Shown in pieces: positions 23,293 through 60,878 of a stretch of DNA of 64,000 bases; position 1 is the first letter of the stretch, and each line of letters starts with the position of its first letter. The notes beneath the pieces were generated by a model. The model was not told the DNA's origin, made no database searches, and was given only the letters and a program-made list of their open reading frames with translations. This stretch comes from Tribonema minus (Eukaryota > Sar > Xanthophyceae > Tribonematales > Tribonemataceae): positions 124,001 through 188,000 of the forward strand of contig JAFCMP010000526.1 of the NCBI GenBank assembly GCA_017506865.1, given 5' to 3'. The translations under genes and the position numbers were made by a program.

Positions 23293-26200
23293 TCATAACC
23301 GCTCCAGCACCACGACGCTCGCCGGCACGCCGCCAATATTCACAGGCAGGTCTTGCTCGACGCGCCACCGCGCCCCCTCCCCCCCCTGCGCAACGTCTAC
23401 TGCCGCCGCCGCCGCCACAATCACGTGGCTGTACGTTGAGAGCAGCACGGCGCGGCCGCCGACCTTGAGCACGCGGCGCCACTCCGACAGCAGGCGCGGG
23501 ACCTGCTGCTTGTTGGCCCGCGCGCTGCCGTACTGGCGCCCAAAGGGCATGTCCGTCACGACGTGCGTGACGCTCGCGTCGGGCAGCTGCAGCGCCGCCG
23601 CGTCCCACTGGTGGACCTGCGCCGCCACGGAGAGAGGGGCATCGGATGACGGGAATTGAGGTTGGGGGGGGGGGGGGGGGGGGGGATGTGTGCTGGGCAC
23701 AGCAGCGTGCAGCTGATGCATGGGTTAAGTTGGCATCATCGTGCGTGCGCTGGCTGCTCCCCGAGCGGCGTCCGAAGCGCACGTTCGGCCATTTGCGGGG
23801 TCATGCAGCAGCAGCGGTGCCGCCGCGACCCTGGCGAGCAGCGCGTACACAACACCATGCAACCACGAACGCTGTATCATGCAACCACACGCGCCAGATC
23901 ACAGTGCCAAGCAGAAGAGCGCTATTTGCAGCGCTGCCGCGTCCCACTGGTGGAGCTGCGCCACGGAGAGAGGGTTCGGATGACTTGCAGTGCGGTCGGT
24001 GAAGGATGTATGCTGAGCACAGCAGGACGGATGCACAAGTTGAAGTTGGCGTGTCCGTGTGTTCGTTGCCAGAACTGGCGTAGTCGGAACCGCCGCCTGC
24101 AAAACGTGTACCTTTGCAATATGTACCACAGTGAGTGCAGTGTGATGTATGCGCGCTGAGGGTAGCATGCAGCGGGAGTGGCGCTGCGCATGCGTATGGC
24201 AACGGTGCCTGCTCGCATCAATGGCGGCGGTCACGCGTGCACTGCAGCAGTGCCCTGCCGCACGCCGACACACGTGTGCGTTGCTCAGCATGCGTGTCAG
24301 CGCTCGAGATCATGCAACAGCACCCGCATCGCAGCGAACGGCCACAGACGACAGCAACAAGTGCGCACACGGATTGACCCCCCCCCCCCCCCACAGCGCT
24401 CGCAGCAACACGCACCTCGACGCTTCCGACGCACGCGCCGGCGCACGCGGCGGCATTCTCACGAGCGCACGCCGTCGCCTCCACGCTAGTGTCCGAACTT
24501 ATGCAGCGCGCGCCCGCGACTGCCAGCGCCGCCTCCACCGCAATGGTCCCTATGCCGCCCATGGGGTCCAGCAGCGTCGCGCCGGGGGCGACGCGCGCGG
24601 CGCGCAGCAGCGCGTGCGCAGTGCTCGGCCGCAGCATGGCGATGCGGCCGCCGCGTTGGAGGTAGGCGCGCGGCTCGTGCGGCAGCCTGAATATGGGGCA
24701 GGGGTGCAGAAGGAGGTTGATGTTCATCGTGAAAAACTGCGTTTGCGTTGTTTGTGCGATGGTTGGTGGTGGTGCAGCGTGGCGATGCGGCCGCCGCATT
24801 TGAGGTATGCGCGCGGCTCGTGCGGCAGCCTGAATGCGGGCCGGGGGTGCGGAAAGAGGGCGATGCTCATTGTGAAACTGGGTTTGTATTGTGCGGTGGT
24901 TGATGGCAGTGCAGCATGGCGACGCGGGCGCCGCGGCTGAGGTAGGTGCGCGGCTCGTGCCGCAGCCTGAAAATATACATGGGCTGAAGGAGGCACGGAA
25001 AGAGAGTAATGTTCATCATAAAACTGTGTTTTGCTTTGTGAGGAGGTAACTGGCAGTGCAGCATGGCGCCGCGGGCGCCGCGTTTGAGGTATGCACGCGG
25101 CGCATGCGGCAGCCTGCATGCGGGCCGGGGGTGCGGAAAGAGGGTGATGCGCATCGTAAGACTGTGTTTCTGTTGTTGCGCAAAGGCTGGGGGGTGCTGC
25201 TCGGTCTCGAAGTGCACAGCGCTCGTCAGTGATACAGCGAGGCGGAGTCGCCATCGTACGGCAACGTGGCGCGGCGGAGGGGGACAGACAGCAGCAACAG
25301 CAGCAGCGGCGGCAGCAGCAGCAGCGCTCGAGGAGGTGCAGACAGCAGCAGCGCTCAGCAAGAAAGGGGTGCAGTGCTCAGACACACAGGACGGAAAGCC
25401 TGCGGGCGCGTGAGCGGGTCGCGGCGAAGACAGCAGGCAGCAGTGATCAGCACGCAACTGCGCGTGATGCCGCAAACTAAAGCATGCCGGTATAGCAATG
25501 CCTGACACGCCCAGGGAGTGCGCAAGGGCGTGTGGCAAGAGGTGGCCACCATTGACGCACCGGCACGCTGTTGGTGTACATGCCGCATCATTCACATTCA
25601 GTTCGGATTCGAGTTGATGTTAAAAGAGTGTTCAGAGGCGTAAGGACACGCAAAGTGGTGCCATGTACTGCCATGGCGCAATCTAGAGGCATGGCAACGA
25701 GTACTTGTGGCAGCGCTCAGACGGACGCGTGCGCGCACCTGTTGCCCGACTTGTGGTGCAGCAGCTTGAGCGTCAGGCCGCACGCCATGCAGTCGCGCAG
25801 CACGATGGTGCAGACGTCGCAGTCAAAGGCCGACATGCTCACGCCCCAGCGGAACCGCTCCCCCACCGCCTCCCCCACGCTGGCCATGGCCTGACGGTCG
25901 ATGGAAACGAATCAGAAGATCGTAGAGCTCTAGGTGACAAAGGATGGTTAGCTGCAAGTGCCTTCCATCAATAACCGTAGTCGCCGCTGCTGGCGTCATT
26001 GGCCACGAGTCAATGTGATGTTTGTATGTTGCAGGAACACAGTGGGAGGTGCTGTTGTGTCAGATGGGTGTATGCCGGCGCGTTGAGAAGGCAGGTGGTG
26101 TTTGAAAGTAGAGTCTCTGAACATCTACTGCTTGAGTGACGGGTGCTTATCACATTTGCTTGTAACTGGCGTGCGGCGGTGTGACAGTCGGTGATTGCCA

Positions 26201-27546: not shown

Positions 27547-27584
27547 TGCCAGCCTATCGCCACAAGATTTGGCAGTTGCACCTG
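27460..27584. promoter_or_regulatory. Putative bidirectional promoter
   Basis: The divergent start codons of the THUMPD-type gene (27546 or 27459, -) and the hAT-derived gene (27585, +) leave only 38-125 bp. Transcription start sites must lie very close or overlap. No TATA box is evident. Confidence 0.35.
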
Positions 27585-28214
27585 ATGGAACCGCAACAGC
27601 TCGGTCACGATGGCTCCGCAGCCCCTTCTGCAGAGGGACCCACATCGGAAACAGCAGAGCTTGCAGCAGCACCGCTGGCACTGCTTGAAGCGGTCAGCCT
27701 CGCAGCTCCAGCTGCACCTGGCGATGGCGGGGGGGATGTCGCTCCAGTCAGGCGCGGTCCCGCCAGTGGCAGTGGCCGCCCCCCCCAGCCCATCTGGCTC
27801 GAATTCGAACGAGGGGAGCAGCTGTCCGGCGCGGGCCGGAGATCAGCGTCGTGCCGGCACTGCCCCAAGGTCTACCGGGAGGGGCGCCCGGAGCAGATGA
27901 TCAAGCACATACTGGACGAATGCACGGGGGTCAGCGAGGCGGTGCGCGAGCGCGTGCGGCGCGCGGAGGCGGCGCGCGCGGAGAGGGCGGCGGAGAAGCG
28001 CAAGGCGGCGGCGGCGGCGGGGCACGGCGGCGGCAAGGGCAAGAAGCCCAAGGGAGAGGCAGGTGGCGGCGGCGGCGACGGCGCTGCTAAGCAGCAGCAG
28101 CAGCCTGTGATGCTGCCGGCGGCGGGTACAGAGCATCAGCTGCAGCAGCAGCAGCAGCCGCAGCAGCAGCAGCAGCACCTGCAGCAGCAGCAGCAGCAGC
28201 AGCAGCAGCACCTG

Positions 28215-28249
<35 letters not shown>

Positions 28250-34200: not shown

Positions 34201-36631
34201 TGCTGCTCAGCGGTTGTTGTGTTCCGGCGCTCTATCGCGGATGGCGGTATCGTACCTCACGTGACACACCCGATGTGTCCAAGCGCTGGTTGCGCACCGT
34301 GGCAACGCTGCATTGCCGTTGCTGCTTTGTCGGCGCGCAGGCGGGGCAGCTCATGCAGCAGCGCGGCTTTCGCCCAGCGCCGATTCGTCCAGCCTACTCC
34401 ACAGCGCCCACTGCCGCTGCTACAGCGTACTGATACACACATGATTGAAGCCCACTGTTTACGCCGATGCTTTGCTGCTGAAGTACAATGTTTCGTGTGG
34501 GGGCAGGGCACCTGATGCAGCGGCGCGGCTTCGCTGCTGCTAGGGTGTGCGCGCACACTCTGACGCTGGTGCATGTATGATTGCATCCTGCCAGTTCGTA
34601 CGCAGCAGCTTCTGCACACTCTGCGGCTGATGCGGCGCCGTCAACATTGACATTATGCGCGCAGGCGGGGCAGCTGATGCAGCGGCGCGGCATCACCGCT
34701 GCTATTGGCATACGCGCACACTCTGACGCTGGTGCATGATTGCATCCTACCATTTGCCCGCAGCACACTCTGAGGCTGACGCGTTGCCATTTAAACGCGA
34801 CGCGCCGCGCGCGCAGGTGGGGCAGCTCATGCAGCGGCGCGGCTACGACCAGAACCAGTTCATCTCACCTGCTCCACAGCGGCCGCTGCTACAACGTTCT
34901 GATACATATTTGTTTGAAGCGCACTTAATTTTTGTGGTGCAATGTGGCGCACACTCTGATGCCGATGCGTCGCTGCCTAAATCACTCTCTGTTCGCAGGC
35001 GGGGCAGCTGATGCAGCGGCGCGGCTACGACCAGAACCAGCTCGTCCACGCCATCTTCAAACTTCAAGACTACAGGGCCGGCGCCGCGCCCTTCGACGCC
35101 GTCTACGGCGGCCCCAACTTCAACCCGCGCACGTGGTGGGCAGCGCTCAACTGCGACGGCACGTCCGAAGTCGTCAGCATCGCGCTGCTGCTTCTCGACA
35201 TCGCCCCGCACCTGCCCGACCCCGAGGCGGTATTCGGGGACCTCGGGTGGGCGGGCGGGGGGCACGCGGAGGGGGCGTGCGCGCGCAGCGGCGGCGCCGC
35301 CGCGCGCGTCGTGCGCGCGTGCCAGCGGCAGCGCCCGCCGCCACCGCCGCTCCGCGACAGGTGCGTGTGTGTCAGAGTGCAGCCGTCTCATGAGTTCTAT
35401 CTTGGTGTCTTCAAGAGGCAAAAACTCGTAAAAAAAGCCAAGTGTTTTCAATGGCGCTGCCGCGCGCGTCGCCAGCGCTCGCCGCCGCCGCCGCTCCGCA
35501 GCAGGTGCGTGCATCGTAGCCAGGTCAGGAAGTTTCTTCTGGTGTCCACAAGAGGATTGAAAAACAAAACATGGGTTTTCAGTGGCGCTGCCGCGCGCGT
35601 CGTCCGCGCGTACCAGCGGCAGCGCCCGCCGCCGCCGCCGCCGCATCGCAGCAGGTGCGTGCGTCGGGTTGTGGCCTTGTTGCGAAGCTTTTCTTGGTGT
35701 CCATGTACATGAAGAAAAACAAAACACAAAAACATTGTGTTTTCAGTCGCGTTGCCGCGCACGTCGTGCGTACGAGCACTGCTGCAGCGCCCGCATTAAG
35801 CAGCGCCCGGATCAAGACATGAGCTCGCATGCTGGCGCGGAGGGTGGTGGCAGGGGGACCCTTGCCATAGTAATTGCACATCTAAAGCACAGTAGTCCTG
35901 CCTCCGCTGCATGTATGGCATACGCTGCTTGCGTTGCAGCGGCTGCCGCATTGGGAGCAACGGTCCATGTAGCAGCGCTTTAAAAATTTGCCAGCTAGCT
36001 GAGCGCCATAGGGGTTTGAAGTTTGAACTTGGGGCTGAGGAATGCGTTGTTGCCGTCAGCTTCGTCGTGAAAACCACCTGGCAGTGCTACACGAAGCACA
36101 TCTCCACTGTCTGCACACGCAAGTTGGCATCCTCTCAGCCTTCTGGCTTTCCTTCATATGCTGCGCTGCAGTGTCAACGGGGCCGCGGCGCACGATGCAT
36201 CACCACCACCGCCACCACCAGCAGCAGCAGCGGCAGCAGCAGCGGCGGCGGCGGCAGCAGCAGCGGCGGCGGCAGCAGCGGCGCAGCCGTCGTCCGCCGC
36301 CGCCAGCGGCGCAGACGCCATCACGCCCGCGGAGCTCGACGCGTCGCTGCTCGCCATGGGCAGAGCAGCAGCGCTCATGACACCGCCCCCCGCCGCCGCG
36401 GGCGCGGAGCGCGGCAGCGCCGCCACCGCCAGCATCGACGCTCGGCTCGTGGAACTGTTCCATGGGGTCGCGTTGGATGATGCGCGGCTCGCGCCGGGCT
36501 ACGTGCCGCCTGCGGTCACGCCGACGCCGCTGATGCCCGCGCTGGGCACGTTCACGGCGGGCGCGTACGATGTGGAGGCGCTCGTGCAGGCGAGCCTCGC
36601 GCAGCCGCCGCCGCGGCAGCAGCAGCAGCGG

Positions 36632-36672
<41 letters not shown>

Positions 36673-36805: not shown

Positions 36806-37198
36806 AAGAACTTTCAGTATGCTTGCTGGCAGCGTAGTTGTATGTTGCAAGTCCACATGGCCATGTCGTGACGCCGGCTTCATCAATGCACGATGGCCGG
36901 TCATGCCCTTGAGAGCGTGGTCGAAGCCAGCCGTTGCCTTGCCCGCGTGTCGTCTCGCGATTTCGCTGCGACTCTGCATGGCCATGTTGTGGCCGTGAGC
37001 AACAGCGCATGCACCACGACATTTGCGAGCATGGTCGATGCCGGCCGTTGCTGCGCGGCGCAGTGCGCGCTTTTACCGCGAGGTGGCCATGTCTGCGGGC
37101 CGCAGCCACCAAATGAGCCTGTGAAGGCATTTGGCTTGTTGATGTGTAGACTAGTGTGTTGTTCATATGTATACAACAACGGTGTGTATGACGTGCTT

Positions 37199-37369: not shown

Positions 37370-40300
37370 ATGGGCAGGTCAGATAAGCGCTATTTTGTTG
37401 CGCTCTTGTGCGTTCTAGTTAACCAAAAAAGATCGCACTTGAAGCTTGAAGCTCACCGATTGATATTGATATGCTTGCGTGTGTGTGTGTCAGGAAAAAG
37501 TCAGGGAACAAGAAGAAAGCTGCAGCGCCCGCCAAAACTACCTCAGAGGGCAGCGGCGCTGCAGTTGCTCCCGTTGCGCTTGAATCCGGAGGTGAATCCA
37601 GTGAGGCGCACGAGCAAGCAGAGCAGCCTGTCGAGGCACCAGCGGCTGAAAGTGCCCCAGCCGCTGAAAGTGGTGGCACCGCTGATGTGAAGGAGGACCC
37701 AGCTGCTGCTGTTGCTGCCGAAACGGAGGCTGAAGAGGGCGCCTCGGCACAATCAGCAGGAGCTGATGAAGGCGAAGGAGGCACAGCAAAATCAGCAACT
37801 GGAACCTCAGTTGCTTTGCAGGAGCAGAAATGTAAGTCGATTCGTTACAAGATGGGCAGTACGTTCACAACATATGAATTCTGCAAGCTGCGAATTGCAG
37901 CACGCGGTGCTTGACTGTACTTGGGAGACATCAGCACCACCTCAACAACAAATCTCAGGCATGTCGATGCCAACTAAGTAGTGTCGTGACGAATGTGGAG
38001 TCATACGGGCACTGCAGAAGTGCACTGCGCTTGGCGGCAAGGCAGAATAATATGTTGCAGTTTGCATGAAGGCGATCACATATCAAAATTGTCACCGATG
38101 ATTGATGTCCTCAGCCAACATCGTGCAGCAGGTTCAAGCGCTGGCACACTAACTTTGGCTATTGTCGTACGTCATAATCAAATTAGTCTCTGGGATTTCT
38201 TATGCCAAAGAGACGTCTTCTCTGGATATTCTATGCATACTTGAATCCACACCAGGCGACAAGTACGGCTTCGCAGGGGGTGTCACGCTGACACCTGACT
38301 GATTCGCATAACCTATTGTTGCCCCCGCACACGCGCCCGACTGCTTCCACGCGAGCAGCTGCTGAGATCTGACTTCTATCACACGCATCCCACGCACATG
38401 TGCGACTGTTTACGCGAGAGCAGCGACCCTGGGGAGCGCGCTGCAACCCTAACCCTCACCCTGGATGTTCCATGCGCTTGGGTCTACACCAGGCGACAAA
38501 AATGGCTCTGAGGCGCACGGTGTCGTGCTGAGATCTGACATTTATCGCACGCGTCCCCCACACATGTGCGACTGTTTACACGCGCGAGCAGCGGCCCTGG
38601 AGAGCGCGCTGCAAGTGCGGCCGAGCGTGGACGAGCTGGAGGCGAAGGGCGTCGTGCAGCACCACGAGCTCGCGGCGGAGGCGCCGCTCATTACGCACGC
38701 AAAGGTGAAGCTGGAGGAGGAGCTGGAGAAGGGGGCGTTCAAGGGGCATGGGGGGGTGCTGCCGGACGCGGAGGAGCTGCAGCAGGCTGGGATACTGCCC
38801 GCCGTCGGTGAGTCGAGCACTGGTGGCCACATACTACTTCTAAGTTGAGGAATTACTACTTGAAGTTATCATGATGCGGCACCGCTCATCACAGGGGAGG
38901 TTTGTTGGAGCCCACCGTTGGTGAGTTCACTGAGTTGAGCACTGGTGGCCACTTATTAGAGCAACTTCGCCCGCATTTGATGAGTTGACTGCATTGAGCA
39001 CTGGTGGCCACATATGTATTAGTCACTACGCCCGCCGTTGGCGAGTCCACGGAGGTGAGCACCGGTGGCCACTTGCCAGCAACCATGCCCGCCGTTGCTG
39101 AGTTGACTGTGTTGAGCACTGGTGGCCACTTGCTAGCAACTACGCCCGTTGACTGAGCACTGGCTGCCACTTAGTAGCGACTACCACTACTTGAAGTTCA
39201 TATGGTAGTGCATCACTATCACTCACAGAGAGGTTTCTTCAAAAAATGGCAGAGACACGCCGGTGGGACTGGTGTTGCTGCTGTGCTCAATTATTTGACA
39301 GGTTCGGGGGCAGAGGGAAGCAAAGCCTGCAGGTGTTTCCTGAATGAGGACCAGCTGCCGCAGCAACTGCCGCCGCTTGCTGATTGAGCATTGCCGCTGC
39401 CCGGCAGCTCAATTGCTGATATAGTTCTTGCGGCATCACAAAAAAAACCTGAGCATGTGGGCTATGGGACGCTAGTATGATGCCTTGAATGCCGAAAAAC
39501 AAACGCAGGTGGACAAGTGGCACTGAAGTACAGGAGCAGGCAAAGGCATTCGAGGCGTCATCATGTTGCAGTAGCATGGTTGCACTGTGGTGATTTGTGT
39601 TTCGCCAGAGTGCTGCCTGTACGTTGCACTACACATGCAGCGACGGCGTGGCCGTAGAAAGATATGTGAACATGCAGGCATTGAACTCATGCTGAGACGT
39701 GGCTACTTCTGAGAAGGGAATGAAGTACAAAGCCACATATGCTGACACGGTGCACCGAAGCACTGGCGTCAGAGCTTGCTGGAGGAATTTGAATGATCAC
39801 TTGCCTCATGAAGTGGAACGCAGCGGCTGCTGCTGAGCGTTGTGTCAAATGGGTAAATGCGAACGGCGGCCAGTTCCTTATTATCATCATTGTGGGATCC
39901 CAAAGGTTGCGTTGCGTATTTCGACAACGTGTCTTCGTCACCACTGCGGCGATGTGGGACCTTGTGTCCGTTCACGTAAATGCAGTTCCGCGCCAGCAGC
40001 AACAGCAATGTGGCCGGGCATCGTAAGATGACTGCAAGGTCCTCAGCCCATCATGCATGCGTACTGGCAGCCTCGCAAGTGGTGTATAATGAGACGAATA
40101 GCTGTAGTTGTCATGACAATGACAACCTGCTGGCCTCTTGAATTACACCCATACACCGCTCTGCACCCCATCAGCAAAGCTAGACATACAATCAGGATGC
40201 CTTGTCATATTGCTGTTTTGTACCACTCTCGGATGAGTGCTGCTGCACCTGTTGCAGGTGCGAATCGTGTTGCTTGTCATGTTGCCATCATGGACCACTC

Positions 40301-43300
40301 TTAGATGAGCACGGCTGCGCTTGTTGCAGGCGCGGTCATGTTGCTTGTCATGTTGCCATCATGGACCACTCTTAGATGAGCACTGCTGCGCTTGTTGCAG
40401 GCGCCGTCGTGTTGCTTGTCATGTTGCCATCATGGATTACTCTTAGATGAGCGCTGCTGCAGCTGCTGCAGGCACGGCCCATTAGCACCGCGTGTGATCC
40501 TGACGCCTTGTCACGTAGCCATTATGGACCACTCTTAGATGAGATGTTGCCATAGTGGATCTCCACTATAAGCTGAGCGCTGCTGCACGCGGTGGTGGCG
40601 CCGGCGTTGCAGGCCCACCAGCACGACCTCGCGCGCAGCATGAGCAAGGACAAGCAGCAGTGGCGACCGCGGTTATTGCTGGGAGGCATGCAATATGACG
40701 GCCCACCACACCTTGTCACCTAGACCTCTCTGATCCTTTGATTCGTTTCCATATATACTGTACACGACTCTTAGATGAGCGCTGCTGCAGCTGTTGCAGG
40801 CGCGGTGGTGGCGCCGGCGCTGCAGGCGCACCAGCATGACCTCGCGCGCAGCATGAGCAAGGACAAGCTGGCAGCGCTGCTCCGCAAGCGCCCGTCCGAG
40901 GCCGAACTCGAAGCGACCGGCATCCTTCCTGGTGAGCGAGCCAAGTACAAACTTCGGAAGTTGTCTGAAGTTACATGTTACATGTGAAGTACTGGATGTA
41001 GGTGATTGTGACACGCGGCACTGACGCTCTCGTACTGCACGCGGCACTCTAGCGCGGACGCAGACGGCGGGGGGAAAGTCGCGGGCAGCCTGCAGGCGAC
41101 GCGGCAGTCGCTGGAGCGGTCACTGAGCGGTGCTGCAGCGCTTGCTGAGCCGTGACACCAACTTCAAGTCAACAGTGGCTGTCGAACAGATGCCAGCAGT
41201 GCTCAGCATACGATGCACGACCATGCAGCGCTTACGCTCACGCGTTCTTGCGCGAATCTTTGCACGAACGCAGACGAGCACGCAGCGTCGTTGCAAGCGA
41301 TGCCGCAGTCGCTGGAGCAGTCGCTGAGCGGTGCTGCATGCACTTGCTGAGCCATGACACCATTATCAAGTCCACTGTGGCTGCCAAATAGAAAATGCAG
41401 AGCTGTCGATCCCGTGTCTTGTGCAATTCTTTAAAGCAGACGGCGCGCGCAGCTGCGGGCAGCCTGCAGGCGACACGGCAGTCGCTGGAGCGGTCGCTGA
41501 GCTGTGCTGCATGCAGTTGCTGAGCCGTGATACCATCCTCAAGTCCACTGTGTGGCTGTCGAATAGATCATGCAGAGCTGACGATCTCGTGTACGCAATT
41601 CCTTGATGCAGACGGCGCACGCAGCATCGCGGGCAGCCTGCAGGCGACGCAGCAGTCGCTAGAGCGGTCGCTGAGCCATGCTGCATGAGTTGCTGAGCGG
41701 TGACACCAACTTTGAGTCCACTGTTGCTGTTGAATAGATCATGCAGCGCTGACGATCCCGTGCCTTATGCAATGGTTTTACGCGAACACAGACGGCGCGC
41801 GCAGCGTAGCGGGCAGCCTGCAGGCGACGCGGCAGCCGCTGCAGCGCGATCGCTGAGCCGTGCTGCATGCACTTGCTAACCTGTGACACTAACATCGAGT
41901 CACTGTGGCTGTCAAACGGATGCATCCGTGCTCAGCACACAATGCACAAGCGAAACACTTGACGCTCTTATGCTGCACGCGGCTTTTTGGTGCAAACGCA
42001 GACGGCGAACGCAGCGTCGCGGGCAGCCTGCAGGCGACGCGGCAGTCGCTGGAACAGTCGCTGAGCCGTGCTGCAGCACTTGCTGAGCCGTGACACCAAC
42101 TTCAAGTCCACTGTGGCTGTCAAACGGATGCAGCAGTGCTCAGCATACAAGTGCACGACCACGGCAGAGCTGACACTCCCGCGTCCTTGCGCAATTTTTT
42201 GACGCAGACGGCGCCCGCAGCGTCGCGGGCAGCCTGCAGGCGACGCGTCAGTCGCTGGAGCGGTCGCTGAGCCGTGACCTGGTGAAGCACAGGCTCGACA
42301 AGCGGCCGTCGATTCCGGAGCTGGAGAGCCAGGGCATACGCATCGGTGAGCAGCGCTGCTGCGAGGCGTCGCACTCGCTCAGTAGCTGTTGAAGTACATG
42401 TTGAAGTTGTATTGCGCAGGTTTCGCCGGCTGGCGGCGGAAGTCGGCGCTGATCGCTCCTGTGTGCGCATGCGCGTGTGCCTGGTTGGCGGTGGCACGCA
42501 TCTGTAGACAGGACACGATCACAGTAATGATGGTGGCTCCAGCACTGCCAGACGCTTGATCTGTGCTAAATGCTGTTGGTGACCGCAATGTCACCATGGC
42601 CTGCAGATGACGTGGGCACGTGATCGCATGATGTTGCAACAGCACTTTCTGAGGCATTGTCGTCTGATTGGACACTACAGCAATCAACGAAGGGTGTGAT
42701 ATAGCGAGCTCATAAAAAGTTCAACACAGAAACGTATCGGAGAACCTGCACCAAATCGGTCCGCCATTCGTCGGTGGCTGTACCGACAGCTATTGACGAA
42801 ATTGAATAGTGCGCTCACCTACTGTGCTTGATAGCGCTGAGCAAACGCAAGGCACAGCAAGCCGAATAAATGTATGGTGCACTGCGCTGCGCTGCGGGGT
42901 CTGTCTACGCGCAGAGCCGGACGTGGCGCCGAAGCTGCAGTCAACGCGGACGAGCCTGGAGAAGAGCATCGCGCGGAGCGCTGTCGCGCGCAGCCTGAGG
43001 CAGAGGCCTTCGCTACAGGACATGAACCACCTGCACTGGTATGCCGGTGAGTCCGAGTGAGTGAGTGAGTGAGTCATTGTTGAGCGCTGTGGCGTGCAAG
43101 CTGACGCACGGGCCCTCGCGGCAAGACATGTAACGGCGTGCAATGCTATGGTGGCGAGTATGAGTAAGTGAGGCATCAGTGTTTTGTCCGACGGATCCAT
43201 CGTGGTCCCATTCGCCGGGTCTCACCGGTGCCTGCAGCCAATGAGCCTTCCACGTGCTAAGTGGGGCTCACATTCACGCTGGCGTGCTCTGTTGCTGCAT

Positions 43301-44465: not shown

Positions 44466-45703
44466 CTCATGACCCAGACTCATTCGACGCACAGAGCACT
44501 GCAACGTCAGCGACGCGCGCACGGGCCGCACCGCTGTGGTTGATGCTGCACGCCACCAGTGTCTGGGCCTCAGCGTCAACATGCGTTGCCTGCCAAGCGG
44601 ATAACAACAGAACCAAGCATGGCGCAAGTGGTGTTGCACATTAGATTGCCAACCATGCGGGCCAGACATTGAGTAGGGTCGGACGGCAGGGGATGGGGGG
44701 GTTGGGGAGTTCTTCATTTGCGCCTTTGTCCGCATCTTGTGTTTTGTGTTGCCGTGTGAAATGAAAATTGAAGCAAACGGTTTTGGAACTTTTGATCTTG
44801 TCACTGCCCGCTCGCATGGCGGGAGTCAATGGATGGGCGTCGACATGAAAGAATGGGAGGGCTGCATCCGTAGGCATCACGCCGTTCGCCCATCGCTCTG
44901 CTGGCGTGTCCTATTGCCACTAGGGGCGCTTTGCTTTGGGGCACAATGTGCCGCTTCGGGTGCGGCAGCAGCAGCAGCGCTGTTCTCAGCTGATGACGTG
45001 GCCTACCTGGCGCACGAGATATTTGCAGGGGTTGTCACGACTCCACCCCCGGAGTCGGCCAACGACTCCGCTCCGACTCCGCTCCGGCCGGAGCGGAGTC
45101 GGAGTCGTTCGGCATATCTCATTGCTCCGCGGAGTCGGAGTCGGAGTCGTTCACCGAGCAAGTTGTCGGAGCGGAGTCGTACAGTTGCCCCGGAGCGAAG
45201 GGCCCCGACTCCTCTAGTTGAGCACGCGTTGTGCACGCAGCAGCATATTTCGGTGCATGCGGTACAACGCAGTGCTGGGCTGTGGCTCCAAGTGGCCCAG
45301 AGACAGGCAATATCTAGTTTGAGGAGGAGATGGCTGCTAAAAGGCAGGGTCGGAGTCGCACCGGAGTCGCCCTAACTCCGACTCCGCTCCGGCCGGGCCA
45401 TCGCTTTGCTCCTCGGAGTCGGAGTCGGAGTCGTACAGCGATGGTGCCAGCTCCCCGGAGCGGAGTTGGAGTCGTAGGCAAATGAGTCAGAGTCATACAG
45501 ATATTGAGGAGTCGTGATAACCCCTGGATATTTGGGCCAGGCTGGCCCAAACATGGGGTTCGCTGCATTCGCATACAACTGACATGAGCTGAGCAGCCCA
45601 CCCAGTTACGGACCGGCTCCTGACTTTTGACGTGCACATCGGTTCCAGTACAGTAACCTAGTTTGTCAGTAACCTGCTTTGTCCCATCATGGCTTAGACT
45701 ACA
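44466..45703. other. Intergenic with a GAGTCG-rich palindromic satellite
   Basis: No supported exon. From about 45030 to 45490 the DNA is built of GGAGTC/CGGAGT units in both orientations (see separate entry). I saw no TGTAA for the RPEL gene. Confidence 0.5.
45050..45480. repeat. GGAGTCG-type satellite with perfect hairpins
   Basis: Repeats of GGAGTC and its complement alternate. At about 45062-45111, gactccgctccggccggagc sits at the centre of a near-perfect palindrome of about 50 bp. Further blocks lie at about 45126-45180, 45345-45435 and 45455-45480. Confidence 0.85.
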
Positions 45704-45946
45704 CAGGGCAAACTTCCAGGGAATCCAGGTGACCGCGAGCGGAGCGGGCGCACGGCGCGCAACCGATGGCCGGGGGAAAGTGCACTAAACGGGACTGGTC
45801 ACTTGCTGGTGGCTCAAGGGGAAATAGTGCACACAACGGGACCGGTCACTGCTCTGGTGGCTCGCAACAATCATCAAAATGCCACTGCACGCAGCCATGG
45901 TGATTGCAGAGATCGTTTCCTTGCTCCCACCTCCGAGTCCAAGACC

Positions 45947-46633
45947 ATGTCGTTCAGCGTGGAGGACTTCCGTCGCGCCATGTTCGAGGTCTGCGAGTGG
46001 CTTGATTCCCCTCAAGTCCACTACGCTCAAAACATGCAAGACATGCTGGTTTGGCTGGAGCAGCATCCCGATGCTCGCTTCGGCTCAGAACTCGAGCTGC
46101 AGGAGGTGCGCGGCGTCGGCCACTTCTGGGGTCGCTGGATCTGGACTGCGTTGCTCAATGGGCCAGATTGGTCAGGCCCAGCGTCGGGTTCACGCGGCCG
46201 TGCTGCGCCGGCTGAGCCGACTCTCAAGGCCCAAATTCGAGCCGCCATCCAAGCGGAAACCAAGCTCAGGGCCGAGCAAGTCAAATTAGATGGTACCGCA
46301 AACAAGCGGAGCGAGCTACTGGAGCGCCGCCGCAACGAGCTCGCTGCGACAGTGACCCGCTGCACTGCAACCGTGCGCGTGACGCTGCCACCTCTCATCA
46401 GGCGGAAATTGACGAGGCAAGTCGGAAACGCATGCGGTTACAGAGACTTCGTGATGGCCTCCCGATCCTGCTGCTCCCGCTGCTACTGCTCCGGCTGCTG
46501 CTGCTGCTGCTGGACGTATCGTGCCAGGGCGGTTCGTGCCAAGGCATTCGCGTTGCTGGAGATGGGGTGCGGCGAGCCCGCACGCGTGGTTTCTTGTACC
46601 GTTATCGGAGTCCGAGGACTCCGACGACAGTGA
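45947..46633 (+). CDS. ORF in left arm of fold-back element, unknown
   Basis: 228 residues from ATG 45947 (MSFSVEDFRRAMFEVCEWLD). It has a helical, Glu/Arg-rich second half (ETKLRAEQVKLDGTANKRSE), then runs into Cys/Leu-rich spacer sequence that is probably not genuine. No family is recognised. The same frame is kept in the right arm, with in-frame differences. Confidence 0.4.
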   Translation: MSFSVEDFRRAMFEVCEWLDSPQVHYAQNMQDMLVWLEQHPDARFGSELELQEVRGVGHFWGRWIWTALLNGPDWSGPASGSRGRAAPAEPTLKAQIRAAIQAETKLRAEQVKLDGTANKRSELLERRRNELAATVTRCTATVRVTLPPLIRRKLTRQVGNACGYRDFVMASRSCCSRCYCSGCCCCCWTYRARAVRAKAFALLEMGCGEPARVVSCTVIGVRGLRRQ

Positions 46634-46652
46634 CTCCAGGATCGGGGGGCCA

Positions 46653-47138
46653 TCACGAAGTCTCTGTAACCGCATGCGTTTCCGACTTGCCTCGTAAATT
46701 TCCGCCTGGCAGCGTCACGCGCACGGCTGCAGTGCAACGGGTCACTGTCGCAGCAAGCTCGTTGCGCCGGCGCTCCAGTAGCTCGCTCTGCTTGTTTGCG
46801 GTACCATCTAATTTGACTTGCTCGGCCCTGAGCTTGGTTTCCGCTTGAATGGCGGCTCGAATTTGGTCCTCGAGAGTCGGCTCAGCCGGCGCAGCACGGC
46901 CGCGTGAACCCGACGCTGGGCCTGACCAATCTGGCCCATTCCAGATCCAGCGAACCCAGAAGTGGCCGACGCCGCGCACCTCCTGCAGCTCGAGTTCTGA
47001 GCCGAAGCGAGCATCGGGATGCTGCTCCAGCCAAACCAGCATGTCTTGCACGTTTTGAGCGTAGTGGGCTTGAGGGGAACTAAGCCACTCGAAGACCTCG
47101 AACATGGCGCGACGGAAGTCCTCCACGCTGAACGACAT
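46653..47138 (-). CDS. ORF in right arm of fold-back element, unknown
   Basis: 161 residues from ATG 47138 (MSFSVEDFRRAMFEVFEWLS), the inverted counterpart of the left-arm ORF. It differs by substitutions and a small in-frame loss (WIWNGPDW against WIWTALLNGPDW). It may be a captured gene or part of the element's coding capacity. Confidence 0.4.
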   Translation of the reverse strand: MSFSVEDFRRAMFEVFEWLSSPQAHYAQNVQDMLVWLEQHPDARFGSELELQEVRGVGHFWVRWIWNGPDWSGPASGSRGRAAPAEPTLEDQIRAAIQAETKLRAEQVKLDGTANKQSELLERRRNELAATVTRCTAAVRVTLPGGNLRGKSETHAVTETS

Positions 47139-47474
47139 GGTCTTGGAGGTGGGAGCAAGGAAATGATCGCTGCAAACACCATGGCTGCGTGCAGTGGCAT
47201 TTTGATTATTGTTGCGAGCCACCAGAGCAGTGACCGGTCCCGTTGTGTGCACTATTTCCCCTTGAGCCACCAGAGCAGTGGCCAGTCCCGTTCAGTGCAC
47301 TATTTCCCCAGGCCATCGGTTACGCGGCCGCGCGCCCGCTCGCGGTGACCAGGCTTCCTGGAAGTTTGCCCTGTAGTATGAGCACCTTTATTCTGTCGCC
47401 GTGCTTGCGGTTTGAAGTTGAAAGAAGGTTGGAATGGAGAGGAAGGATGAGTGCGGCTGGCTTTGTGATGAGTG

Positions 47475-50400
47475 ATGGTGATGCTGATGCTGGCGCTAGC
47501 GCTGCTGTGGCAGCAAGCATTCCTGGCAGCTGGTGAGTGCTCGTTCCTCATACTTTGCACTCAGGATATGGCAAGCACGTCACGCTTGATTCAGCCACGA
47601 GGTGTACAGCTGGACACCGTCAAAACTTCGAGCACGTTCGACGGAGGACGCTGCAAAGTGGCATGATCTTGCAGTCCCACACCAATTTCCAGAAGCGACT
47701 CTCACACATCGTTTTTTGCACAAAACTAGAAACCTGCTGCAGCAGATCCAACTCGGGCCGGTCAAGGCCAGTCCCATAGGCAAACCTGTTGTCCCTTGTC
47801 TAGGGTGGTTTCGTGTGTAATTCGGTCAGCTGCGGGCTTAGCCTGCCATCCTGTGACCAGTGCTGATTAGCGTGCAAGGTGCACGTGGTGATCCACCACG
47901 GCAGTCTGCAAGTGGTCGATGTTGCAATGCAATGCAGGCTCGTGCAAGCGCACAGGCTGCCGTGTGTTGGTGCTGCGCGCCCTGGTTCTATGTAGGTCGC
48001 TCGACCATATGCATTGAACGTTGCACAATCGCTTCAAGGTTGGCGATTCATGCTGGATAGCATGTGAATCATGACGTGATACCCTGTTTGCCAAGTATCA
48101 TGACCTCATGAAGTGTTGTCCGGTTATGCAGCCTATGCAAGCACCAAGGCTAAGTTGTGTTGCTGCTGTCCGCCCTGGAAAGAGTGCTTGATCACGTGCA
48201 TTCTGCATTGCACGTGTGCCGTAAGGTTACTGATGCATGCTGCAAGGGCTAGCGCAGGACTACTAACTTTGTGGAATCGAATCAAAAGATCGCAGCGCTC
48301 TAGGTGACAAGGTGTGCTTAGCCCTCAAATTGGGGCTTCCGTCAATCACCGTGGTCGCCGCTGCTGCGACCATTGGCCACGAGTCAACCAGTGCCACCAT
48401 TGATAGTTGCAGGCCGCTGCGGTAGGAGCAGCGCCTCACTCATTTGGAGGCCAGAGTCACTGCTCTTGCAGCTCACGGCAATGGGGATAGCGTTTCACTC
48501 AGTCCATGGCATTCGTTACACTTGCGGTTTGCTGCACGCTTTTGTCCTCGCTTCATCATGTGTAGTCCTGATAGGTACGATCGACACCTTGCCCTCGTTT
48601 TGCGTGCAGGGCCCTGTGACACACATCTTCAACTTCTTGAAGTTCACGACATCACATTGCGCACGTTAGGCTTCCCTAGCCGCTCCAGCTCGCTGCAGCA
48701 GCAGCTGACGCCGCATGAGCAGTGCTATGCGCGGGGCACTTCAACCTCACCACACCGCCTTTTTCGCACGTACTTCTTGTTACTCGAGGTATGCACTTGC
48801 TGCCCCTTTTGGCTAGCTGCTGCTGTACTTTTGCCACGTCATCCTCCTGACTTGAATGCACTTCCTGCCCCTTTTGTTCCCCTGCTGGCAGGCTGCTGCG
48901 GCAGCTGAGACCGCGTCAGTGCTCAGTGCTGGCCACTTCAACCTCACCTCAGTACTTTCCCCTCACTCGAAATATGTACTTCCTGCCCGTTTCCGTCCGC
49001 TGCTGCAGCTGCTGAAACCGCACCAGTGCTCAGCGCCGGTCACTTCAACCTCACGGCCGCCAGCTACGCCGCGGCGGTGCGCAAGCAGCGTGGCGGTCTG
49101 CTCGTGGGCTTCGCATCTCCGGCGTGCGAGAAGTGCGCCGTCTTGGAGCCGGAGTACGAGGCAGCCGCTCAGCAACTCAAGGCCATGGGGGTGCGCTATG
49201 CCTTCCGCCATCGTCCAAGTGTCGTGCTTTTGAAGTGGATGCTTTCGCTTCTGTAGATGATAGCATCGTTGCATCAGAAAAGCGAGTCCACATACCAAAA
49301 GTATTGGTGCATGGACACAGTGCGTATTCGATTGAAACGTATGAGCCGGAGTATGACGCAGCTGCTCGGCAGCTCAAGGCGATGTGGGTGCGTTGTGATT
49401 TGTGCCATTGTTCAAATGTCGTACTCCCGAAGTAGATGCTCTCGCCTCTGCAACTTGTAGCATCGTTGCAGTAGAAAAGGCGAGTTCACGAATGAAGAGC
49501 AGTGGAGCATGGACACAGTGCGTATCCGAACCTCTTCCAATGCCGAGAGCAGAGGGGCATCAGGGTGCCACCGTTCGCGCGATAGGTCGAACGGACGTAG
49601 TGCTCTGCATCACTAATCTGCCAAGGAAGTGCTTGCACGCTCAATGGTGATCATGCACACTGCAGACAGCAGCGGCGGCGACGGCTGCGTCTGCGATGCA
49701 CGAGGTCAACCCGTGTCGAAATCGTCAAAATGCCAAGAAGTTGCATGCTCGGTGCTCACAACGCCGCCATGACAATTCACTACACGATGTGATGACATCG
49801 ATGACATCCATGTGTATGCTCCAAATATCAACACCCGCTACTCATGACACCTTCCAAGACAGCGCCGCCACGGCTGCCTCAGACACCGCACACCAAACTC
49901 AACTCACCAGCACTCCGCGTGCAGGTGCCACTTGCGCGCGTCGACGCGGAAAGAAGCATCACCTCCTGATGTTCCCGCAACGTCGGAAAATTTCTGTCTG
50001 TCTCTGTAGATCCTGCTGTTGGTTGTGTCAATAATGGATTTCGTTGTCGCTAAACGGCAGCACACTACGTCGCCGCCATGACCGCCACCACAAACGCTGC
50101 ACAACGCGCGTTTCACCAGCACTCGCCGCAACGTCCGCGCGCAGGTGCCCCTGGCGCGCGTCAACACGGAAAAGGAGCGTCACCTGCTGGCGTCCGTCGC
50201 GACGGAAACGTCCCGCCCGTCGCTCCCCTGCCTGCTGTTCCACGACCCCCCGGGGAGGGCCTCCGCGCGAGCGTCCCCCGTAGTGTACAAAGGCGCTCAC
50301 AGCGCGAATGACATAGTTGAGTTTGTGCGCAAGCAGCTGGCGTCGCCGTCAGCAGCGCTCAGAAACGCTGCCGCGGTGGACGCGTTTTTGGAGCGCGGGG

Positions 50401-53400
50401 GGGCTTCTGGGTCTGTTACTAGGGTAAGTAGGTTTTGTCATTACTAGGGTATGTAGGTATGCTGTTTGGGTACATGAGTTGGGCTCGGGGGGCAGCGGCG
50501 GAGGAGGCCTCGTCTGAGTGCTATCCGTAGATGGCTTCGTGATGGTAGTGAGTGTTTGTGTATGCTCCCAGCAGGGAAAGCATACACAAGTAAATAGGAG
50601 CGTACGCGTTGTATATGACGTGGTACAGGATAGGGTGTCCGCCCCTTGAGCGGAAATAAATCAATCAAGTTTGTCGCATTCGCGGCATGTCCCTGTGGCT
50701 CGCTCGCTGCGTGCTGCGCTTCGACATGAAGTTCACTGTGCGGGTTGACGCACCATCACACAGTTAGACAGAGGTTGAGGTTCACCTGGACGTACAGACC
50801 TTGCCATGCATCGAAGTCTGGCGCTGTTGATGGTGTGTGGCTCATGCAGCGTGCGCTGCTGTAACACAGCACCACATAGCTGGAGGGGCGGAGGGGCTGT
50901 TGGCGCATGCTCTTTTCAGCCAACACTAGCACATGGCGTCTGCTTGTAGCATCAGCTTGTGGCAGCATTCAAAGCTTCATTACAGTAAGGCTGACTTTGA
51001 TTCTGATGTTGTCGTTACTGCAGGTACTGGGCCTGTTCTCTGATGGAAACGGCATGGAAGATGACGACTTGAGTGACTTCATGGATGCCGCCAGAGAACT
51101 TCAAGGGCGGGTACGTGTGTGAGGTGCAGTGGTAATCCATATTTCTGTGATTTTCTATAGGTGTGTCGTTAAAGTACTTCAAGTTGAAGTCAGTTAAAAA
51201 AGCTGACTCCTCTCAGTGGACGAGTTGCTCTATTTGAACGCTTTAACCATGGGCTGCGAGTTCACGATAATTCACCTCTGGAGCATAGCAACCTCCGAGC
51301 GTGGTACATGGTGAAAGTACACACGCTGAGCGTCACCACCCACATTTGTCTGCGTTGCCGTGGCCCACCACTGTGCCGAATTGTCACATTACATTGCAGC
51401 TGCCATGGCAAAGGACAGTGTCATAGTGCGGAACTGTCATATTTCCATGTGCCTTGCTGGTGCAGTAGCGAGCTGCTCGCAAAGTGTTGAGCATTGTTGA
51501 TTCGCTGAGCGCTGTTTTTGTTTTTCAAGTTGGATCTCTTTTTTCTTATATTTTCTTCTTATATATGTATGTACGCCTGATATGCAGCGTAAAGTTTGCG
51601 GTGTGATGGTGCAGGTACGCATGCTAGGCATCACTGGATTGATCAGCATCATTGCGCTGCCATGCTAAACCTGAACCCCAACCCCATGACTCCTGCTGGT
51701 GCACTGTCGTGGAATTTGCCGCAGAACCTTTCAACTCTCTCGCGCGCGTCCTGTGGGTGTAATTTGAGCGCTGCTGCTGCGCCTCTTGCTCTCCTCTTTT
51801 GTGCGCATCGCCAGGCCGACATATACTTTGGCCATATAGACGATGCGTTGCTGGCAAGGGAGTACGTGGGGCGGAAGGGGGAGTGGCCGGTCCGCACCCC
51901 TGCTGTGGCACTGCTCAGGTAAAGTGCACCAGCGCTGAGCGTTGTGACGCGTGTGCAGTGGCATTGCTCAGGTGAAATGAATCACATTTTGGTGTAGCAT
52001 AGCGGCAGGGGGGGATTTGGTCATGGCATTGCTGAAGGCAAGGCACCACGATTGAGCACTGAGGCATGTCCGCAATGGCACTGCTCAGCTGTGGCGCGTG
52101 TGCAATAGCACGCTCAGGGGGGCTGGCCGGTCCGCACCCCCCGCAGTGGCACACTGCTCAAGTAAACTGCGCCGGCGTTGAGCACTGTGGCACTTCAACA
52201 AAGACAGTGCTCAGGTACTTCAATACAGATAGTGCGTTGCTCAGGCGGTATGGTTTTGCGCTTTATGTAAAGTGCACCTCTGTTGAGCTCTGGCACCTAT
52301 TCATGTTTTTGCAAATACTTCTGTTGTACTGCTCAGGTGAAATGAGGTCACAGATCCCCGTGGAGTGCTGCAGCCTCCTTGCGCTGTTGAGCACTGTGGC
52401 ATCTGTAAGTCAACACCAACACGCAGAGCTGACAGGCCCTGCGATATGGAGATTATTGGCATATGAGACGCCTGGACAATGTCAATTTGCCGCTACCATT
52501 TTCGCTGCGCCAATGAAGGCCAGGCGTGCTTGATGAGCCGCTGAGCATCGAGTAGTACTCCTTGCCTTGTTCCGAGCAGTACTCCTACTCGTTACTCCTC
52601 AGAAGCACTCGTAGTCGTCCTGGCTGTGCACAGCTGACTTGCAGCGCACAGGAAAAGAGCTTGACTCCGCCAAGTGACGCTATCATGCCACCCCTGTTAT
52701 AAAATAGGCCAGGCGCGCTGGAACGAGCAGTACTCCTACTACTTCTTCCCCAGAAGTACTCGTACTCGTGCCAACAGTGCACAGCCGCTGGCACAGCCGC
52801 TGGCACTTAAACACTGGAAGGAACTCCGCCAGTGACGCTGTCATGATCGCCATGTTGAAATGCAGGCCAGGCATGCTGGAGGAGCCGCTGAGCATCCACC
52901 TCGATACGCTCGCCGACGCAGCGGATGCATCGCTGTCGGACTGGATACTGAGGGTGAGCTCTGTCACTGTATGCTTCCTGAGTGTTGTTGCACTGTGACA
53001 CGCCGCGGAGTACTGAGGGTGAGCGCTGTCACTGCGTTGCTGAGCGCTGATGCACCTTGATGCGCTCGCTGACGCCGCAAATGCTTTTCGGACTAAAAAG
53101 TGAGGGTGAGCGCTGTCACTGTCAGAGTGGGTACTGATGGTGAGCGCTGTCGCTGTGTCTCTGAGCACTGTTGCTACTCTACGCGCAACGAGGGGTCACG
53201 CTGCGGAATGCTGTGATGCACTGAGTGTTGGCTGAGTGTTGCTACTAGTAGGCCTGCGGGGTGTACCTTCTCGTTGATGGTAGACTAGGCGTCTAGCGAA
53301 CAATCCCATACCTTACATACCTGTATTATCACGGCACGCCCAGGCCTTGAAAGCACTTAACCGCTCTCTCTCACCCAACCCTGCCTCTGGGTAGAGAGCG

Positions 53401-59400: not shown

Positions 59401-60878
59401 CCTGCTGCCATCGACAATCTGCCATGCGGTCTGTTCGCATGGCGTTGAGGCCGTGTCTGTTTGAAGTTAGACAGAAGAGGAAGGTACACAGGTATGAGGC
59501 TGAACGCTTTGCAGCTGTGCCGCAAACAGTAAGCGGTGATGACCACTGTGTGCACAGGACGCACGCAGCACACAATTTCGGTGTGTATATTATCGGGTGA
59601 TACATCATTGGGCCTTACGACTGGCATTTCACAAGCACACAGAACGCGTGTCCGATGCCCTGTTGAGACTGACGATTTTTCCCCGCCTGTGTCCTTCGTC
59701 TCTGCGGCGCCCATTTGTGTGCACCATCACAGCGAGTGGGGCTGCGCTTTGCGGAGCTGAGCATCGCCACCGTGACCATTGCGCGCATGGACGTAACGGC
59801 CGCAGCGCCGCCGGCGACGCACGCGCTCACGCTGCCGCCGCTGCCTGCGATACTGCTGCTGCCTGCCGATGACAAGGGGCCCCCGTACAGGTAAGATGAC
59901 ATCATCAATGACGACAATGCAGATATGTCGTTGAGGTGAATGCTATATGCTCCAGGTTTATGACAGTTTTATTGTTGGCTACACAACAGAAACATATGAA
60001 TGGTCATGTTATTTCAATAAATAAATACATATGTCCACACTGTAGGACCTGAGAACAAATATCTTGAGGTTTATGCAGAAGTAACAGTTTCAAATGTATG
60101 TAAGCGTTGTGTTGCTTGACACCTGTGTCTGCCAGCGCCAGATCGGAGCAGTTTGTCATGGCCATAAACATGGTCGACCAGGGCACAAGCGCCTACTATG
60201 ACCCCTGCACAACAGCTCAGCAGTGCTCAGGCGTGGTGCGGTTGCGGTCCTAAACTTGAAGTTCGTAGGTCTGACCTCAGCAACACACCACCTCAGTTGC
60301 TCGCGCGCCAGTGCTCAGCGGTCATTGCCCGCTGCGTCACCATCCGCAGACTCTACTCCAGAGAGCGGCTGCTTTGGTGGCATGCACAGCGCAATCGCTT
60401 GCCTGCACCAAATTGACACGTTTCGCATGACCATGTCAACGGCTGAGCTGGCTTATAGGGTGCATGCACCTCAGCGTGATAGCAGTGCTCAGTCCTGGGG
60501 CCCGGGCATGCACACGTGCATGCAGGCCTGCGCTTGGTCTGTGTGTGTTTGGGGGGGGGGGCTGCTGTGTTGTGCAAACCTCATTCCTTCATCATCAGCC
60601 CTCTTGAAGTGCTCATTCCACAGTGCTCAGCAGCATTACCCTGCCGCATCACCTCACGCAGATTCTACTCCGGCAAGGGCAAGACAGCAGCCATCATGCA
60701 GTGGCTGCAGCAGCACGCCTCGCGGCACTTTGAGCTACCGCCGGTGCCGCACCTGAGTGGCGCTGACCGCGTGTTGTACTACAAGCAGCTGAAGCAGCGG
60801 GAGGAAATGCTGCAGCAGCGACAGCAGCAGCAACAGCAGCAGCAGCAGCAGAGCAGTGACGGTTATGAGGAGCTTTGA
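47475..60878 (+). CDS. PDI-like thioredoxin-fold ER protein with one CEKC site
   Basis: Fourteen exons in phase: 47475-47532, 49009-49190, 50145-50423, 51024-51110, 51815-51918, 52866-52953, 54416-54512, 54945-55024, 56418-56490, 57432-57712, 58303-58374, 58758-58796, 59733-59890, 60662-60878; 604 residues. Exon 1 is a signal peptide (MVMLMLALALLWQQAFLAA). The first thioredoxin domain has C59-E-K-C62 (SPACEKCAVLEPEY) and LARVNTEKERHLLAS. Middle exons match PDI b/b' folds (VLGLFSDGNG; VPTVGRLTHGSFGLYERLGL; GRMSFVYADGVAF; LPQLAVNT). The last domain (VTALNFDAVAMREDRDVLLL) has a degenerate site with one Cys (EACAHIIPHY, C472). The tail is Gln-rich and ends GYEEL, perhaps an ER-retention variant. 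Likely a thiol oxidoreductase or chaperone in the ER. Only one of two redox sites is intact. TGTAA occurs at 61300-61304. Confidence 0.87.
48271..48388 (+). repeat. Dispersed intronic repeat, copy 3
   Basis: Best match to the element at 25900-26012, same orientation. Shared are gaatcaaaagatcgcagcgc, ctaggtgacaa, gtcgccgctgctg and attggccacgagtcaa. It lies in intron 1 of the PDI-like gene. Confidence 0.75.
48700..49060 (+). repeat. Ladder of exon 2 acceptor plus exon start (PDI-like gene)
   Basis: The true exon start (TAPVLSAGHFNLTA, exon at 49009) is preceded by copies at about 48719-48752 and 48898-48950 (gtgctcagtgctggccactt, then caacctcac). Each is followed by a similar ...tactcgaggtatgcacttgctgcccc stretch. 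Confidence 0.85.
49330..49420 (+). repeat. Copy of exon 2 end plus donor (PDI-like gene)
   Basis: EPEYDAAARQLKAMW and donor gtgcgt repeat the true exon end EPEYEAAAQQLKAMG at 49190. The flanking sequence around tagcatcgttgca also recurs. Confidence 0.85.
49908..49985 (+). repeat. Copy of exon 3 acceptor plus exon start (PDI-like gene)
   Basis: cgtgcag|GTGCCACTTGCGCGCGTCG and a following cgcggaaagaagcatcacctcctg repeat the true junction at 50145 (LARVNTEKERHLLAS). The surrounding tggatttcg/cactacgtcgccgccatgac region recurs too. Confidence 0.85.
53490..54000. repeat. Scattered telomere-type blocks in intron 6 (PDI-like gene)
   Basis: CCCTAA-type runs at about 53493-53510, 53590-53600, 53685-53697 and 53720-53738, then TTAGGG-type runs at about 53933-53995, with a change of orientation between them. 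Confidence 0.8.
54208..54265 (+). repeat. Copy of exon 7 acceptor plus exon start (PDI-like gene)
   Basis: cagagcagcttgccgcggtc then ggctgcctgactcacggcag repeats the true junction at 54416, one step of about 190 bp upstream. Confidence 0.8.
54990..55450 (+). repeat. Ladder of exon 8 end plus donor (PDI-like gene)
   Basis: The true end LLAELEAVALEL and donor (55024) recurs at about 55215-55252 (LLAESEAVALEL) and 55370-55408 (LLAELEAVALEL, but donor changed to gcgaga). Long flanks match as well (ttgagcaccggagtaggtga). Confidence 0.9.
56470..56720 (+). repeat. Short tandem donor-like repeat after exon 9 (PDI-like gene)
   Basis: About eight copies of tgagcgctgc/tgagcactgc alternate with gtgaagttgag-like spacers of about 30 bp. 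The unit matches the donor flank of exon 9 (gtgagcgctgc) at 56491. Confidence 0.85.
57055..57285 (+). repeat. Ladder of exon 10 acceptor plus exon start (PDI-like gene)
   Basis: Copies of TRQDLPQLAVNTRDARRF appear at about 57060-57108 and 57215-57282 before the true exon at 57432. The second copy keeps DARRFAF before a stop. Confidence 0.9.
57857..57882 (+). repeat. Interstitial telomere-type repeat (TTAGGG)n
   Basis: Four tandem GGTTAG units in intron 10 of the PDI-like gene. Similar short blocks lie at about 55770-55795, 56034-56062 and 58886-58908. Confidence 0.85.
60300..60375 (+). repeat. Copy of exon 14 acceptor plus exon start (PDI-like gene)
   Basis: cagtgctcagcggtcattgc then ccgctgcgtcaccatccgca|gactctactcc repeats the true junction region 60631-60690, one step of about 310 bp upstream. 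Confidence 0.8.

Follow-up and report, generated by a model that had tools for sequence, protein, structure and literature searches.

The window, as we call the whole 64,000-nucleotide stretch of DNA analysed here, contains several protein-coding genes in which the intron next to an exon border carries tandem copies of that same border. We refer to such a series as a junction ladder, to its members as rungs or decoys, and to the border of the complete exon as the live junction. A THUMPD-like methyltransferase gene on the minus strand has its exon E2 at 25739..25890, on the donor side of a laddered intron, the complete exon E3 at 24416..24686 and the last exon E4 at 23293..23616, all three placed by the match of the joined protein. 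The ladder upstream of E3 (24687..25177, recognised by self-comparison and seed search) ends at the acceptor at 24686 and has three decoys, the first exon-copy bases of which are 24829, 24966 and 25113. Its rungs, spaced at 137-147 bp, each carry about 68 bp of intron tail, followed by the AG and some 75 bp from the start of the exon, and a genome-wide search with the array matches its own locus only. A single decoy of the E4 acceptor at 23616 was found by the same two approaches 339 bp upstream in the intron (23927..23984).

Joining the outermost copies of the THUMPD-like gene yields a protein of 417 aa, which aligns over its full length, with one gap, to P0021, a transcript-derived protein of 416 aa from a close relative (398 of 417 residues identical, 95%). 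Provided that the relative has the same ladder, the end-to-end match means that its mature RNA is consistent with the use of the final acceptor copies alone.

The remaining ladders described here lie on the plus strand. The acceptor 34999 of a putative exon is preceded by a ladder at 34333..34864 (self-comparison, seed search) with four copies, near 34341, 34503, 34665 and 34817, three of which span the junction. A complete RPEL-domain exon at 38592..38807 (Pfam RPEL, 32.6 bits against a cut-off of 23) is copied on both sides: a seed search located a decoy of its acceptor 38592 with about 23 bp of exon start at 38412..38446, and self-comparison revealed a donor ladder at 38910..39148 with a period of about 57-60 bp, in which each rung includes just 12 bp or so from the end of the exon, this part being read by eye. 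An intron-weighted seed of the donor 38808 has three matches, one of which aligned across the junction; in the other two the short stretch of exon was judged by eye. The acceptor decoy of the RPEL exon stops at 38446, where a telomere-like CCCTAACCCTCACCC stretch starts.

An array of units of about 200 bp, seen in the self-comparison at 41022..42276, lies between the RPEL exon and a thioredoxin/PDI-like gene and likewise matches only its own locus genome-wide. In the PDI-like gene, two decoys of the acceptor 49009 occupy 48691..48951 and a decoy of the donor 49191, with about 45 bp of exon end, the donor and the intron start, lies at 49343..49529 (self-comparison and alignment in both cases); between them stands the complete thioredoxin-domain exon (49009..49190, profile match). 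The beginning of the next exon, given as a translated stretch with an open 3' end at 50145..50474, completes the thioredoxin domain together with 49009-49190, and its acceptor 50145 has a decoy with about 40-45 bp of exon start at 49914..49968 (seed search, alignment). The two joined exons cover positions 4-101 of the 103 of the thioredoxin profile, compared with 4-49 for the open frame of the first exon.

These are the eight junction ladders that were examined singly, in a range in which the self-comparison of the window displays many short-distance direct repeats. The preliminary description had proposed ladders in at least 15 introns; this is borne out at the eight junctions of the window that were checked, and the count of 15 extends beyond those eight. 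It had also stated that one complete exon closes each ladder and that splicing at the outermost copies gives an intact product. Both statements hold for the ladders examined, judging from the profile matches, P0021 and the joined PDI exons, with the near-identity of the THUMPD-like protein, the nearly complete thioredoxin domain and the RPEL score above cut-off as the products concerned. The name hAT, which had been given to the gene with the acceptor 34999, was not upheld, as no hAT domain was found at E <= 0.01 in three frames.

Two further repeats in the window are of other kinds. Positions 1-10568 comprise a tandem duplication of 4,979 bp (99.6% identity over 5,590 bp), inside which units of about 1.2 kb are repeated at about 88% identity, their frames being FNIII-like by eye. 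Positions 45700-46470 and 46637-47378 form an inverted pair of open reading frames about 170 bp apart (91% identity over 776 bp), for neither of which a Pfam search returned a match.

Junction copies in kinesin and chaperonin genes

The assembly scanned is eukaryotic, with 158 Mb in 554 contigs, and 92 matches to light-harvesting proteins mark it as that of a photosynthetic alga, very probably a yellow-green one. The kinesin domain, chosen as a probe blind to repeats, gave 132 exon matches genome-wide, and the merged kinesin stretches amount to 37 blocks of 197 kb with 116 of the 132 matches inside. From 48 pairs of neighbouring kinesin exons 47 introns were resolved, one pair being dropped for want of a valid splice solution, and 44 were kept after three introns with weak splice-site scores had been dropped. 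The consensus of the kept introns is AG/GTGAGY at the donor and GCAG/G at the acceptor, the slash marking the border. One pair on contig C511 had been misassigned, a decoy with a long overhang having been taken as the exon; it was excluded from the seed counts, which refer to 43 introns, and later replaced. The final set of 49 introns includes the corrected kinesin pair and five introns from a single chaperonin gene; a further 41 junctions known from one side only bring the total to 139 junctions. The chaperonin gene was chosen from profile matches before its repeats were inspected, although one overlapping match was already visible in the list. The test set represents one gene family and one chaperonin gene, with arrays in 16 genes, and its junctions were placed by homology and splice-site scores; placement by transcript applies to the THUMPD-like gene only. 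A junction copy was accepted at a score of 36, compared with 24 at the 99.5th percentile of shuffled seeds.

In these kinesin genes and the one chaperonin gene, 33 of 139 junctions, about a quarter, are copied into the adjoining intron, which agrees with the earlier proposal that the pattern is general. Among the first 43 introns, 17 have a copy at either end. The copy profile falls from 34/139 at the junction to 6/139 at 60 bp into the exon (p = 1.7e-6), and exon seeds at least 60 bp from a border are copied in a single case out of 479. Laddered introns are longer than unladdered ones (median 926 bp, n = 20, versus 593 bp, n = 29; p = 0.006), as had been expected from an enlargement of introns by the ladders; these intron lengths, as well as the numbers of self-hits per array used below, were transferred manually from the array list.

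The orientation of the copies is uniform. Within 1.5 kb, the 197 kb of kinesin loci contain 305 direct and 4 inverted self-hits, versus none in one shuffled copy, and neither inverted junction copies (0/139) nor copies on the wrong side of the exon (0/137) were found. Likewise, in six of seven pairs of profile matches overlapping by at least 20 aa, the second copy is truncated and lies on the expected side; the seventh (C279) is ambiguous, and one decoy-decoy row was excluded. Direct copies on the correct side are the necessary outcome of a head-to-tail duplication that spans a single junction. The aligned length reaches at least 0.9 of the copy distance in only 5 of 34 junction matches, while the other 29 stay below 0.9 and are eroded or nested; as most decoy alignments are thus shorter than the copy distance, many arrays appear to be eroded.

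Copy distances spread more widely than the period of about 60 to 220 bp initially given for the ladders, ranging from 91 to 559 bp among DNA matches, with a minimum of 55 bp among the copies located by seeds. The exon share of the copies, first put at 20-75 bp upstream and 15-60 bp downstream, compares with array footprints that overhang into the exon by 20-135 bp, 3 of 24 of them by more than 65 bp. A sharp limit of 65 bp was considered and given up, being softened by profile matches to decoys that include some 66-144 nt of exon sequence. Decoys with overhangs of 87-144 nt occur in the chaperonin genes of this genome (G000) at C51:21979-22639 and C5:352998-353558. At kinesin acceptors, copies seem sparse at intron offsets from -36 to -60, a short way upstream of the border (3/73 at -48 versus 19/73 at 0); this sparse stretch may correspond to the zone of the branch site, the copying of which would make a decoy usable, or may be due to chance.

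State and descent of the decoys

Identity to the live exon is 89.4% on the exon side of the decoys, whereas the intron sides of the copies are 77.9% identical. The corresponding divergences, 10.6% for a decoy from a constrained exon and 22% for intron parts from each other, fit the drift of one lineage in the former and of two lineages in the latter comparison. Splice dinucleotides are retained in the decoys to the same degree as the exon side (27/30 GT bases, 34/38 AG bases). A better conservation of the exon part than of the intron part, suggested together with few indels by matches to exon-weighted seeds, vanished with intron-only seeds and is read as a search bias: with the latter seeds the exon part of the decoys and the interior arrays have mismatch rates of 0.20 and 0.19-0.20 and 6.0 and 6.2-6.4 indels per 100, respectively, in a weak control of only 15 copies, some of which apparently stop short of the exon. 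Judged from such sequence comparisons, the decoys seem to be silent leftovers that drift near-neutrally.

Derived states common to decoys number 35 of 97 possible, compared with 5.4 expected under independence, 19 of the 35 coming from one ladder. Sharing above independence indicates that some rungs were copied from other rungs; for most rungs, however, the live junction seems to be the source.

Origin of the ladders

We consider it probable that the ladders arose by local head-to-tail duplication across junctions, with the outer copy spliced, the inner copies drifting and duplication commoner at junctions than elsewhere. Head-to-tail duplication would affect stretches of tens to a few hundred base pairs within introns and in their surroundings. 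Where a unit straddles one junction, the copy attached to the whole exon (the first at a donor, the last at an acceptor) would remain the spliced one, and as the protein is unchanged the duplication would be silent. The inner copies, left behind in the intron as decoy junctions, would drift free of selection. Repeated events, in most of which the live junction would be the template, would add further rungs and make the intron longer. Decoys with long exon stretches would presumably be spliced and hence selected away, as the scarcity of long overhangs suggests. Tandem geometry, neutral drift and a silent outer exon together explain much of the anatomy of the ladders without any aimed copying; the part of the proposal that goes beyond them is that duplication, rather than retention, would be more frequent at junctions.

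The expectation that repeats are commoner at borders fails when judged by the single seed, since donors (9/43) and acceptors (11/43) of the first 43 introns are copied about as often as the intron interior (192/1123), but it holds once arrays are counted by their anchor. Many interior seed matches are rungs of ladders, and the borders prevail in the latter count: of 38 arrays, 11 are anchored at a donor, 13 at an acceptor and 14 in the interior, so that 24 are junction-anchored (share under gene bootstrap 0.47-0.78), and the anchored arrays hold 8,005 of 10,401 array bases. With exons masked, 19 of 33 arrays contain their own exon-end sequence versus 5.5 expected under uniform placement, and exon ends of other genes match the arrays in 9 of 630 trials.

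One source of this excess could be duplication aimed at junctions through transcription or splicing, for instance by breaks at pauses of RNA polymerase or at the ends of RNA-DNA hybrids. We regard such aiming as possible, though short of probable. It is in line with the excess of junction-anchored arrays, with the live junction as the apparent source of most rungs and with exon overhangs that mostly measure 20-65 bp; the coupling to breaks, hybrids or expression itself is something that we infer.

A uniform and unbiased tandem duplication, of which the silent events survive and which mimics an excess through detection or small sample size, appears doubtful. In simulating it we kept the exons under constraint and detected repeats just as in the real data. 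Junction-anchored arrays made up 27/128 in the first run with the overhang limited to 65 bp and 47/148 with unlimited overhang, a share of 0.19-0.30 in eight further settings, and 49/254 and 110/291 in the third run, the last being the most generous null with unlimited exon overhang. The observed 24/38 exceeds this simulated range of 0.19-0.38 with p from 8e-8 to 0.004, the latter against 110/291, the highest share that uniform duplication attained. In exon-masked simulations the share was 14/120 and 41/128, against which the observed 19/33 gives p = 1.7e-7 and 0.009, respectively. Overhangs above 65 bp were found in 47 of 94 simulated arrays under the four settings that left the exon overhang unlimited, versus the 3 of 24 observed (p = 0.0009). 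What speaks for uniform duplication is the similar repeat cover per seed at borders and in the intron interior, and the behaviour of arrays with a single self-hit, 9 of 21 of which are anchored, near the expected 0.20-0.37; arrays with multiple self-hits are anchored in 15 of 17 cases. As the bias lies in the multi-hit arrays and is hardly seen in the others, it might reflect the retention or the growth of arrays. Nevertheless, uniform duplication seems insufficient for the junction excess.

Another candidate is a ratchet anchored at the exon, in which unequal exchange between exon edge and decoy can enlarge a ladder while shrinkage places decoy letters in the exon and is selected away. This idea, which would predict multi-copy ladders at junctions such as those in the 15 of 17 arrays, was simulated twice with exchange and selection. 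The junction share reached only 0.14-0.34 overall and 0.14-0.47 in multi-hit arrays, and in the first simulation 14 of 57 arrays were anchored at the lowest exchange and 4 of 16 at the highest, which makes the ratchet, under the exchange rules simulated, an unlikely cause. A raised duplication rate at junctions would accordingly be the simplest remaining reading.

Decoys might instead be retained for a function in alternative or regulatory splicing, as the preservation of GT in 14/16 and of AG in 24/27 of the copies found with exon-weighted seeds could suggest. However, the splice dinucleotides are retained no better than the neighbouring exon-side bases, only 4 of 36 predicted decoy uses, three of which concern a single gene, would preserve the frame and stay free of stops, and the transcript of the one relative compared fits none of the decoys of the THUMPD-like gene. 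A functional role of the decoys is thus very unlikely.

Tandem duplication of a piece of exon that contains AGGT, a recognised mechanism of intron gain (PMC3443670), is highly improbable as the source of the ladders, because the intron start resembles the start of the second exon in 0/49 cases and the intron end resembles the end of the first exon in 0/49, a likeness that old gains could have lost, and because none of the 38 arrays runs from donor to acceptor. The tandem units and intronic location of the ladders would also suit a satellite or an introner-type mobile element, to which we give hardly any credence, since the three arrays searched genome-wide (by a search that ignores very common words) each match their own locus only, as the preliminary description had held in rejecting a single satellite, and since arrays hold local exon letters, with their own exon ends in 19/33 versus those of other genes in 9/630.

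Returning to local duplication across junctions, we regard as possible, though short of probable, a fuller reading in which duplication would be biased several-fold to junctions and probably coupled to transcription or splicing, would be a main source of intron length in this lineage, and would leave decoys whose long overhangs are weeded out because the spliceosome would use them.

Short interstitial telomere-like repeats are very common in the introns and spacers of this genome. TTAGGG/CCCTAA repeats occur 21 times in the window versus 0.1 expected (at 13329, 20388, 20751, 29862, 38445, 53493, 56034, 57857 and other positions) and 71 times in the 197 kb of kinesin loci versus 0.2 expected; 27 fall within verified introns (39.8 kb) and none within exons (23.6 kb). 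Perfect telomere 17-mers number 12,771 genome-wide, overlaps counted, versus 0 for the reversed control. We infer a resemblance to the healing of breaks by telomerase. As an origin of ladder edges these repeats were rejected, as 11 of 87 edges lie within 10 bp of one, compared with a fraction of 0.157 at random points.

Comparison with known systems

No recognisable account of junction ladders as a general genome feature was found in the literature searched, the coverage of which is incomplete. If the bias is genome-wide, introns would grow by copying their own ends, a process that does not appear in the available portions of the related papers (PMC2812944, PMC3443670, PMC2891723, PMC7789003). 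In each ladder the true site competes with inherited duplicates for which the amount of exon has been measured, and the exon need of a splice site thereby becomes testable by counting. Such a genome offers many natural tests of the choice between a true splice site and its duplicate; should the junction-biased duplication be true, the ladders would record how natural selection has acted, as in an experiment, on the choice of splice sites. Automatic gene finding in genomes of this kind faces many decoy junctions.

A comparable competition was reportedly set up at the bench by Reed and Maniatis in 1986, in constructs with duplicated splice sites accompanied by differing amounts of exon. Those constructs and the ladders are both tandem copies of one site, the former made in the laboratory and the latter arisen in a genome. 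Zhuo et al. are said to have described, in 2007, introns in human tandem arrays with direct repeats at the intron ends. In that case one end of an intron resembles its other end, whereas in the ladders each end resembles inner copies of itself.

Introners, dispersed families of repeated sequence in the introns of algae and protists (PMC7789003), share with the ladders the tie between repeats and introns; the ladder arrays that were searched are by contrast local and carry local exon letters. The tandem duplication of genomic exon segments with an AGGT is a source of new introns (PMC3443670, PMC2891723), and like the ladders it is a silent tandem duplication that keeps the coding sequence intact. 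It creates an intron between the two copies, however, while the ladders lengthen an existing one, with the crosswise similarity of intron and exon ends at 0/49. In young human paralogs, 27 intron changes have been attributed to internal tandem repeats, often with new introns and with both forms transcribed (PMC2812944). Like the ladders, these human repeats cross exon-intron borders and alter the options for splicing. The ladders in the present genome differ from them in being old and decayed, in affecting about a quarter of the tested junctions, in the use of the outer copy and in forming no new intron. Tandem repeats at exon borders as such are already known (PMC2812944), and the ladders of this genome are a pervasive new form of them.
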